Made by a program: the position numbers and the translations under genes. From Proluteimonas flavola (GTDB lineage: Bacteria; Pseudomonadota; Gammaproteobacteria; Xanthomonadales; Xanthomonadaceae), in the NCBI RefSeq assembly GCF_021191705.1, contig NZ_JAIWPU010000009.1:1-64000 (forward strand): a DNA stretch of 64,000 nt, read 5' to 3'. Below are positions 34,436-39,159 of the stretch, piece after piece; position 1 is the first letter of the stretch, and every line of letters starts with the position of its first letter. Under the pieces are notes generated by a model. That model saw only the letters and a program-made list of their open reading frames with translations. It searched no databases and was not told where the DNA came from.

Positions 34436-34882
34436 TCAGAACGCCGGTCCGCGCATCCGCATCTCCGGTCCCGGACCGATGGTCATGCGACTGTCGGGTT
34501 CGGCATATTCGACGTCGGCTTCGGCATTGAGTGCATCGAGCAGCCGCTGCGACTGCGCGGCGTCGAGCACGGGATCGATCGATACGACATCGGCGCCGAC
34601 CGCGAGCCGTCGCAGCCAGGTCACCTTGCCGGGCACGCCTTTCGCGTCGACCAGACCCGCGCCGCGCGCGCTCTGCGCGATGCGTTCGGCGACCAGCGCC
34701 GGATCGCGTTCCGGCCCACTGCCGGGCGTGTAGCGGACGATGAAACGCTGCTGCATGGCACTGACCTCGCTGGACGTGGTGGCAGGCGGATCGCCGCCCA
34801 TCGCGCACCCCGACAGCAGCAGGGCCGGAACGAGGCACGCGGCGCCGAAGCGCCGCGCGATGTCACGGTGGAATCGATGCAT
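34436..34882 (-). CDS. Lipoprotein consisting of an S8-protease propeptide (I9-like) domain
   Basis: The 148-residue protein has a lipoprotein signal peptide with lipobox LSGC (Cys26). The rest (about 44-133) resembles the propeptide of the subtilase encoded at 37420-39159. Shared landmarks in order are RFIV(R/K)Y, a GS turn, a DPA segment, RR-x3-GADVV, a leucine-rich helix and VE(Y/F)-x-E-x-D. No catalytic domain follows and the protein ends soon after, in MRMRGPAF. It is third in the S8, Lys-C, propeptide string, all on the minus strand. Inhibitor or folding helper for secreted proteases is inferred; a decayed subtilase is the alternative, but there is no downstream remnant. Confidence 0.8.
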   Translation of the reverse strand: MHRFHRDIARRFGAACLVPALLLSGCAMGGDPPATTSSEVSAMQQRFIVRYTPGSGPERDPALVAERIAQSARGAGLVDAKGVPGKVTWLRRLAVGADVVSIDPVLDAAQSQRLLDALNAEADVEYAEPDSRMTIGPGPEMRMRGPAF

Positions 34883-34931
34883 GGCGGTCTCCGCGCAGCA
34901 CGCCGGTGCGTGCGTCCCGGGATGATGCCTC

Positions 34932-34953
34932 CACCCCGGGCGTACCCGGGGTG
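34932..34953 (-). other. Perfect 9-bp hairpin between Lys-C and propeptide genes
   Basis: caccccggg/cccggggtg with a 4-nt loop lies 14 nt after the Lys-C stop on the transcribed strand. No T-run follows. It could stabilise the mRNA 3' end or weaken read-through into the lipoprotein gene. Confidence 0.5.
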
Positions 34954-34966
34954 AAAGCCGGTGCCA

Positions 34967-37285: not shown

Positions 37286-37314
37286 CCTGTTGTCTACCCC
37301 TCGTTGGTGACCAG

Positions 37315-37347
37315 AAAAAACGGAGCACACCGGGTGCGGCATGCTCC
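37315..37347 (-). terminator. Intrinsic terminator after the S8 protease gene
   Basis: On the minus strand a GGAGCA/TGCTCC stem with an inner cac/gtg stem is followed directly by GTTTTTT (T-run complement of 37315-37320). It lies only 30 nt before the Lys-C start, leaving little room for a separate promoter. A second 9-bp stem (gcggacatc/gatgtccgc) lies at 37355-37380. Confidence 0.7.
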
Positions 37348-37419
37348 GCCGGCGGCGGACATCACGATCACGATGTCCGCTGCCTGCCCTTCCTCCCCCG
37401 GAACTCCCCGAACCCGCCT

Positions 37420-39159
37420 TCAGTTGTGGCTGGCGCGCAGCGTGACCCCGGAGAACGCCGTGTAGCCGCGGACCAGCACGTGGTAGGTGCCCGCCTGCGG
37501 CGTTGCGAACGAACAGCTCTCGGTGTTGCCGGTCCGGTATGGACGGCAGTCGTAGGCCGAGGTGGTCGGCGCACTGCCGCGGCGCACGTACAGGTCGGCG
37601 TCGCCGCTGCCGCCCGAGATCGCGATGACCAGGTTGCGGGCGCCCGACGGCACGGTGAACGTCCACGTCTGCGCACTGTTGGCCGCGCCCGACACGCCGG
37701 TGACCGGCACGCCGTTCTGCAACCCGCCGGTACCCGGATCGGGGTCGGGATCCGGTCCCGGCACGGTGCCGCCGGTCGCAGCCGCCACGGCCGCTGCGGC
37801 GTCGACGATGCCCGCGCCGATCGGCTGGGACGGCGTCGACGGGAAGGCACGCGCGGTGCTGGTCAGCAGGGTCTTGATCTGCGCCGGTGTCTTGGCCGGA
37901 TTGGAGACCGACTGGATCAGCGCGACCACACCGGCCACATGCGGCGCCGCCATCGAGGTGCCGTCGTAGGACGCGTAGCTCTCGCTGCCCGGCGTGGTCT
38001 GCCCGCTGTTGAACGTGGAGACGATGCCCGACCCAGGGGCCGAGATCGTGATGCCGGCGCCGTAGTTGGAGAAGCTCGAACGCGCACCGGTGCTGGTGTT
38101 CGACGCGACCGAAATCACGTTGCTGCAGTTGGCCGGCGAGAAGCCCGAGACGTTGGCATTGCTGTTGCCCGCGGCGATGACCAGCGTGGTGCCGCGTCCG
38201 ACCGCGCCGTTGATCGCGCTCTGCATCGCGTTGCCGCAGCTGCCGCTACCGCCGAGGCTGAGGTTGATGACCTCGGCCGGGTTCTGGTTGGCCGGCACGC
38301 CGCTGACGGTGCCGCCGGAGGCCCAGATCACCGCGTCGGCGATGTCGGAGTCGTAACCGCCGCCGCGACCGAGCACGCGCACCGGCACGACCTTCGACTC
38401 GGGCGCAGTGCCCGCGACGCCGACGCCGTTGTTGGTGACCGCCGCGACCGTGCCGGCGACGTGGGTGCCGTGCCAGCTCGACGCGCGACCGGCGTAGAAG
38501 TCGCCGGGATCGCTGGGATCCGCATCGCGCCCGCCGCCGTCACCCGCCACTGCTGCGTCGATGATGAAGTCGTAGCCGGGCAGGATGTTCGCGTTGAGAT
38601 CGCTGTGGTTGGTGATGCCGGTATCGAGCACGGCGACCACCGCGCCCGCGCCCCTGGCGACGTCCCAGGCCTGGGTCGCGCGAATGCCGCCTGCGCCGGT
38701 ACCGAAGCCGTACTGGCTGCTGAAGCGCGGATCGTTCGGCGTCCAGAACACCTGGTTGAGCTTGTCGACCTCGACGAATTCGACGTTCGGATCGGCGGCG
38801 ATCTGCCGCATCAGCGATTCGGCATCGGCGCGGTCGAGCTTGCGGCTGGCGCGCACGACATCCGCGCCCAGCGTCATGCGCCGGACATGTTCGAGACGTA
38901 GCTGCTTGCCGCCCCCGCTGACGGCGATGCGGCTGGCGGATGCGCGCAGCGCGGTGTCGATCGCGGCCGGATCGGCCTGGACGGTCGAACCGTCGCGGTA
39001 TTTGACGATGAAGCGGTCGTGGGTCTCGGCCGACGCCAGGCCGCCGAGGTTGAGCCTGTCCGCGGCGTTGAGCGACAGCGGCGACAGGGCTGCGAGCGCG
39101 AGGGACGTGGCGGCGACGAGCAGACGACGGCGCGGCGCGTGATGCGGGTGATTCGACAT
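37420..39159 (-). CDS. Secreted S8 family serine protease (subtilase) with PPC domain
   Basis: The 579-residue protein starts at ATG 39159 ([20 protein letters not shown]). It has a signal peptide to about residue 32, an I9-type propeptide at 47-133 ([23 protein letters not shown]), then the subtilase domain. The triad is Asp179 (AVLDTGI), His230 ([10 protein letters not shown]) and Ser402 ([12 protein letters not shown]), with oxyanion Asn332 (AAGNSN). A Pro/Asp/Gly-rich linker (466-477) leads to a C-terminal PPC domain (479-579), normally removed on secretion. It is followed by an intrinsic terminator and the Lys-C gene. Confidence 0.96.

Follow-up and report, generated by a model that had tools for sequence, protein, structure and literature searches.

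A stand-alone lipoprotein homologous to S8 propeptides as a candidate inhibitor of the subtilase encoded beside it

Most of the stand-alone propeptide-like subtilase inhibitors known to us come from eukaryotes. One article describes SUB1-ProM of Plasmodium, Pleurotus inhibitor 1, the yeast proteinase B inhibitor, Arabidopsis SPI-1 and TgMIC5 as S8 inhibitors of this kind, with SUB1-ProM syntenic with subtilase genes and with the fungal, yeast and plant proteins lacking significant sequence similarity to propeptides (PMC6993865). Subtilisin propeptides themselves have the order of elements β-α-β-β-α-β, and Glu69 and Asp71 of the BPN' prosegment cap helices of the protease (PMC6993865). Among bacteria, the protease ASP of Aeromonas sobria is accompanied by ORF2, a stand-alone protein encoded just downstream of the protease gene, which is needed for the maturation of ASP and also inhibits it; the C-terminal end of ORF2 sits at the ASP active site (PMC5638518), and ASP is propeptide-deficient (cited in PMC5638518). 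Furthermore, the protease genes of SpeB-Spi in Streptococcus and Bfp-Bfi in Bacteroides fragilis each have an adjoining gene, whose product is a propeptide analogue (Spi) in the first case and an exported, partly lipoprotein, putative inhibitor (Bfi) in the second; both are regarded as protecting the producer (PMC2873492).

The locus and its propeptide-like lipoprotein

The stretch of DNA analysed here (the window, 64 kb) carries on its minus strand, where all features given below are located, three open reading frames encoding an S8 subtilase (P0003; 37420..39159), a Lys-C-type lysyl endopeptidase (34967..37285) and a 148-residue lipoprotein, LP (34436..34882), with gaps of 134 nt between the S8 and Lys-C genes and 84 nt between the Lys-C and LP genes; all three frames reported in the initial annotation are present. 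The subtilase comprises a signal, its own propeptide (residues 46-138; 38746..39024), which is homologous to LP, a catalytic domain and a PPC domain (Pfam Peptidase_S8, 2.2e-60, plus PPC), and its nearest solved relatives are 5yl7 from Pseudoalteromonas arctica and AprB2/AprV2. Its sequence contains DTG, HGTH and GTSMAAP, which we take to be meaningful S8 motifs. This enzyme is the likely target of LP. The Lys-C-type protein has an N-terminal pro region of its own, a PKD domain and two PPC stretches (family search), and matches lysyl endopeptidase 4nsv (3.6e-123) and Achromobacter protease I 1arb (1.7e-116) in the PDB from residue 206, where its mature part begins.

LP, which we delineated by sequence, homology, tree and AlphaFold2 modeling, starts with a lipoprotein signal peptide (residues 1-26; 34805..34882), recognized from the sequence and the lipobox rule: it ends in LLLSGC, with the lipobox LSGC, Cys26 and Ala at +2. 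The stop codon follows residue 148, and the protein is devoid of a catalytic domain. An I9-like propeptide domain spans residues 45-130 (34493..34750), as delimited by the AlphaFold2 model and homology to the S8 propeptide, and closes with E128-x-D130 (34493..34501).

Residues 43-130 of LP are homologous to the subtilase's own propeptide. They align with residues 46-132 of the neighboring subtilase at 35% identity (E = 3e-11, in a single pairwise comparison), and the match between LP and the S8 propeptide in a whole-genome search was 3.3e-9. The landmarks RFIV[KR]Y, RR-x3-GADVV and VE[FY]-x-E-x-D, from which LP beyond its lipobox had originally been read as an S8-type propeptide, are common to both proteins in the same order, and that reading is borne out by the homology to the neighboring propeptide and by the predicted fold. 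The likeness exceeds chance, given that 49 stand-alone rows can be aligned with 54 fused ones over this domain and that E128 and D130 do not vary in any of the 49 stand-alones. Moreover, a profile of stand-alone and fused propeptides matches proteinase K at 2.9e-4; its matches to the BPN' and subtilisin E prosegments are weak (0.11-0.56), with E-x-D aligned, and the match to the BPN' prosegment places E128-x-D130 of LP in register with Glu69/Asp71. LP alone yielded only chance-level matches, and no prosegment, in a phmmer search of the PDB, and no family above the cut-off in Pfam, NCBIfam or PHROGs. The suggested search against Pfam I9 (PF05922) likewise returned no match for LP itself, which lies below the curated cut-off, and no member of the 49 stand-alones was shown to reach it (five match at E <= 1, the best at 0.028); the LP family is missed by Pfam. 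When 60 genomes of the phylum were separately searched for PF05922, a single match emerged, located in the genome of the window but outside the window itself.

The AlphaFold2 model of LP, built with 103 aligned relatives, has the β-α-β-β-α-β arrangement over residues 45-130 (strands 45-51, 86-92, 98-103 and 124-129; helices 61-74 and 108-120), with ten-residue mean pLDDT of 83-97 over residues 41-130 and 60-65 in the tail, and with the signal region unordered. The propeptide order of elements anticipated for LP is thus present in the model. Foldseek found no match in the PDB at E <= 0.001, most rows being ferredoxin-like folds such as ribosomal S6 and ACT, and VIA-align gave Z scores of 7.4, 7.0 and 7.0 for 1scj_B, 1spb_P and 3cnq_P, with unrelated ferredoxin-like rows up to 7.8. 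The subtilisin E and BPN' prosegments are not ranked above unrelated ferredoxin-like proteins, the β-α-β-β-α-β arrangement being a common one; the structural match is therefore not specific to prosegments, and the assignment of LP as a propeptide relative derives from the sequence comparison.

Distribution, descent and genomic neighborhood

Of the 395 genomes of the bacterial family that were searched, 285 contained matches to LP or to the S8 propeptide, and 51 stretches, each of at most 20 kb, were taken around short-frame matches among the matches listed. Two of these (L046 and L071) are S8 genes cut by contig ends and were moved from the stand-alone to the fused set; the remaining 49, together with the window, make 50 LP loci. 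L056, identical to L055 in the core, was dropped from the distinct rows; the fragments L052_15819 and L053_1575 are outside the stand-alone alignment and the 49-row count and inside the 50-row tail parse; L063, with no motif match in that parse, is nevertheless counted among the 49 distinct stand-alones for the tail position discussed below; and L125 and L126 are outside both the 49-row and the 50-row counts.

Among the matches listed, stand-alone relatives of LP occur in 26 of 36 genomes of the window's genus (g1), the other 10 having been checked and found without LP, in all 20 genomes of a second genus (g16), G173 included, and in 7 of 10 genomes of a third (g4), six of which, G213 included, read as stand-alone. 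The remaining genome of the third genus, G055, has just a 38-residue LP match, at the same chromosomal place. An order-wide search of 250 genomes, with no more than 19 candidates scored in each, revealed short open frames in G000 and G028 only, among the matches listed; a stand-alone gene need not show a short frame (as in G173).

In the tree, 49 distinct stand-alones are split from 54 fused propeptides by a branch with support 100/99 that is present in 100% of 200 bootstrap trees, and addition of 10 further fused rows (7 of them different) and the two fragments leaves the stand-alone clan with support 100/98. The tree was computed from 87 columns, tail excluded, which are few for so many rows, and no root was inferred. 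The dN/dS ratio is 0.06-0.31 in all 25 hand-picked pairs of stand-alones, some of which share rows, much like the 0.05-0.38 in nine pairs of fused propeptides. The stand-alone LPs are thus one clan, apart from the sampled fused propeptides, and are under purifying selection. These observations bear on the view that LP is what remains of an S8 gene in decay, for which the expected sign was homologues that are always fused elsewhere; they are not. Individual members of the third genus do have the look of decay, namely L063, a 102-residue frame without a signal, and the lone 38-residue match of G055. For the family as a whole, however, the single clan, the purifying selection in 25 of 25 pairs, the invariant core residues and a tail type unseen in fused propeptides make such a remnant extremely improbable, and the clan and dN/dS values lead us to reject it.

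The gene neighborhoods link LP to S8 proteases. An S8 catalytic domain is encoded in the LP stretch in 25 of 25 loci of the window's genus, 19 of 19 of the second genus and none of 5 of the third, which together with the window amounts to 45 of 50 loci. This linkage is far above chance, estimated at a few per cent with a few such S8 genes per 3-6 Mb genome, and shows LP to be conserved near S8 proteases. At one locus of the window's genus (L090) the local S8 is more distant (40% identical), and among three further loci, L121 has an S8 gene nearby and L125 and L126 do not. A relative of P0003 is present somewhere in each of the 53 LP genomes counted, and in the third genus it is encoded elsewhere on the chromosome (59-64% identity). 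There are several S8 genes per genome, and some of those in the second genus gave no propeptide match. In the window's genus and the third genus LP occupies the same chromosomal place, between genes that we presume, from their sequences, to be asparaginase-like and SufT-like, and a SufT-like gene lies near LP in some loci of the second genus too.

S8 relatives are kept in all ten LP-less genomes of the window's genus among the matches listed, and in G208 and G366 S8 and Lys-C genes lie side by side with LP absent, which makes LP an accessory to S8 and not a requirement. This persistence bears on whether LP helps a secreted protease to fold in trans, templating it in the periplasm as ORF2 does for ASP, a role with which the closeness of LP to the S8 gene would accord. 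We regard such a role as unlikely: ASP is propeptide-deficient, whereas P0003 and 57 further S8 frames that were read carry their own propeptides, and S8 persists without LP in 10 of 36 genomes of the window's genus among the matches listed. The subtilase's own propeptide and its retention in the ten LP-less genomes make folding a less likely role than inhibition.

The association with Lys-C is more uneven. A Lys-C gene stands beside LP at 23 of 25 loci of the window's genus plus the window (24 of 26), at 16 of 19 of the second genus, where the three exceptions lie at contig ends, and at none of 5 of the third. At four loci examined in the second genus a long protein is encoded between LP and Lys-C; of these proteins, the two that were scanned proved to be metalloproteases of the M12 type carrying PKD and P domains. 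In nine genomes with LP (G028, G312 and seven of the third genus), no match to the Lys-C catalytic domain was obtained at E <= 1e-40. Thus, of the proposed three-gene cassette, the linkage of LP to S8 stands and Lys-C as a fixed part does not; the nine genomes point to S8 as the partner. Conceivably, LP could serve the Lys-C protease, for instance by restraining its activation: a Lys-C catalytic match is present in just two of the ten genomes of the window's genus that lack LP, so that loss of LP accompanies loss of Lys-C within the genus, and in the window no hairpin is called in the 84-nt gap between the two genes. Despite this co-occurrence within the genus, the nine genomes weaken Lys-C as a fixed partner of LP, an S8 relative is present in every LP genome counted, and LP is homologous to an S8 propeptide; we consider service to Lys-C quite improbable.

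With regard to transcription, a hairpin scan identified a possible intrinsic terminator 3' of the S8 gene (37319..37350; 14 pairs, then a T-run). A hairpin with a T-run lies after S8 not only in the window but also in 7 of the 25 relatives scanned, the scan of relatives being without a shuffle control, and the window region has 2 such sites against a shuffle mean of 2.3, that is, not above shuffles; some hairpins after Lys-C in relatives fall within the LP coding frame. A search of the region for a sigma-70-type promoter detected none, an outcome of little weight in a GC-rich genome. A hairpin and T-run between S8 and Lys-C-LP make a single simple three-gene operon doubtful, and S8 and Lys-C-LP may be on separate transcripts.

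The C-terminal tail and a proposed role for LP

LP also differs from fused propeptides in its tail (residues 131-148; 34439..34492), defined by motif parsing and by the chain starts of solved homologues. In fused propeptides, seven residues follow E-x-D, and then comes [TSVL]P[ND]D of the mature enzyme. The first chain residue of solved homologues is at D+7, counted from the Asp of E-x-D, in 8 of 11 cases and at D+8 in AprV2/AprB2 (3 of 11), with the proviso that deposited chain starts may reflect constructs; the eight starts at D+7, together with the BPN' register, indicate D+6 as P1 and D+7 as P1'. At this position, the seventh beyond the invariant E-x-D, Pro is found in 41 of 49 distinct stand-alones (Pro137 in the window), compared with none of 55 fused propeptides (0 of 45 distinct parsed and 0 of 10 initially unparsed). 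The window LP continues for 11 residues past Pro137. The stand-alones without this Pro are five rows of the third genus, L090, and L078 and L079, in which a local S8 is present and LP ends at D+7. Of the 43 rows with a local P0003-like S8, 41 have the Pro, as against none of the 6 without such an S8, a pattern that G213 fits; the tree offers just two to three independent contrasts, such that this association is a hint and not significant.

X-Pro bonds are cut poorly by subtilisins, and the LP tail would be substrate-like and resistant to cleavage. If, as the AprV2/AprB2 starts would allow, Pro were instead at P1, it could weaken LP as an inhibitor; a Leu-to-Pro change at the propeptide C-terminus is reported to weaken binding in Tk-subtilisin (cited in PMC10580911).

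We consider it rather probable that LP acts as an inhibitor of the cassette S8 and is descended from an S8 propeptide, exported, in most cases anchored to a membrane, and resistant to cleavage, and we infer its binding, target and protective effect as follows. LP would be exported and, in most species, lipid-tethered. By rule, 39 of the 50 LPs have a lipobox, 6 a Sec-like signal and 5 none, although the start may be misjudged in some of the latter; the initial description of a membrane-tethered lipoprotein thus applies to the window LP and to most relatives, and not to the 11 of 50 without a lipobox. Ala at +2 of a lipoprotein suggests the outer membrane, where LP may accordingly reside, and an exported and tethered LP would be placed in the periplasm, on the path that the subtilase takes during secretion. 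The domain would dock on the subtilase in the fashion of a propeptide, Glu-x-Asp capping helices of the enzyme, and the tail past Asp130 would lie in the active-site cleft as a substrate does. In a fused propeptide the cut falls after this segment, and the propeptide is later destroyed; in LP, with Pro at the expected P1' and the chain continuing beyond, the enzyme would face a poorly cleaved X-Pro bond, which would make LP a lasting inhibitor. It would thereby restrain prematurely active or returning S8 and protect the producer.

The third genus counts against this reading, given that LP is conserved there with a tail without Pro and with no P0003-like S8 nearby. Such conservation, along with the presence of several S8 genes per genome, would be expected if LP guarded against subtilases of other organisms or regulated another S8 of the genome. 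We give this little credence, in view of the S8 linkage at 45 of 50 loci, often at the same place beside SufT, and of the occurrence of the D+7 Pro only where a P0003-like S8 is local. A more specific version of the inhibitor reading, which we offer tentatively as somewhat less than an even proposition, is that LPs are a dedicated bacterial immunity family: in the ancestor of these genera, an S8 propeptide might have become a separate protein in a single event, acquired a lipoprotein signal and been made uncleavable by the P1' proline, so that a folding aid used only once turned into durable, membrane-bound protection of the cell from the subtilase that it secretes.

Comparison with known systems

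We found no stand-alone propeptide lipoprotein of Luteimonas or Lysobacter in the open-access literature searched, as judged by titles and the beginnings of abstracts. If the proposed role is correct, LP would illustrate a route from folding aid to immunity protein and provide a simple sequence mark for such inhibitors, as well as inhibitor and enzyme pairs for secreted proteases of industrial type.

SpeB-Spi and Bfp-Bfi, like SUB1-ProM, resemble LP in the manner of working proposed for it; these two pairs involve C10 cysteine proteases and other inhibitor types, and are presumably analogues and not relatives. SUB1-ProM and the other stand-alone propeptide-like inhibitors are eukaryotic, and PMC6993865 presents none of them as a bacterial lipoprotein; unlike the fungal, yeast and plant inhibitors, LP keeps sequence similarity to propeptides. 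ASP-ORF2 shares with LP the arrangement of a bacterial stand-alone partner encoded beside the protease (PMC5638518); ASP needs ORF2, whereas P0003 has a propeptide of its own. Closest are the S8 propeptides (MEROPS I9), with a homologous domain, the same predicted order of elements and E-x-D in the BPN' register, from which LP differs by the absence of a catalytic domain, its own signal, often with a lipobox, the Pro at the expected P1', the tail beyond it and its position below the Pfam I9 cut-off. Thus, LP is a relative of propeptides that coexists with a protease retaining its own propeptide, and that is itself exported, usually lipid-anchored, and endowed with Pro at the expected cut site.

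Proteases of the cassette and their accessory domains

Similar PPC domains, recognised by Pfam in both proteins, terminate the S8 subtilase (37420-39159, minus strand) and the Lys-C-type protease (34967-37285, minus strand), and this similarity suggests a common module for secretion or surface binding. At loci L047 and L053 of a further genus, g16, the gene for the stand-alone propeptide-like lipoprotein (LP) and that for the Lys-C-type protease flank a metalloprotease of the M12 type (L047:10529-12511; L053:10638-12572), which also contains PKD and P domains, so that the cassette there encompasses three protease classes; long frames resembling these two are found at L048 and L056.

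Propeptide-related sequences outside the LP

Among the 60 genomes of the phylum searched, a single match to PF05922 (Inhibitor_I9) exceeded the cut-off, within a 445-aa frame on the window's own contig, outside the window (G000:C65:86041-86325).

Two g16 genomes carry a stand-alone propeptide fragment of a second kind (L052:15819-16070, minus strand; L053:1575-1820, plus strand; 91% mutual identity). These fragments stop just past the E-x-D region, ending in EYVLLNGKA and EYVLPSGKA, respectively, and lack both E-x-D, the invariant motif of the LP domain, and the tail; they might be remnants or propeptides unable to reach the active site.

Apparently shortened LPs and termini without proline

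In two genomes of another genus, g4, the LP appears shortened (L063:9838-10122, a 102-aa frame without a signal directly after the SufT-like gene) or partial (L125, ~8252-8365, a match of only 38 residues), possibly through decay following the loss of local protease genes.

The LPs of L078 and L079, devoid of a lipobox, terminate exactly at D+7 (MTIQR, then stop), the expected P1' residue seven positions after the motif Asp, and lack the Pro found there in most LPs. These ends recall ORF2, the external chaperone and inhibitor of the Aeromonas sobria protease ASP, whose C-terminal residue is located at the catalytic centre (PMC5638518).
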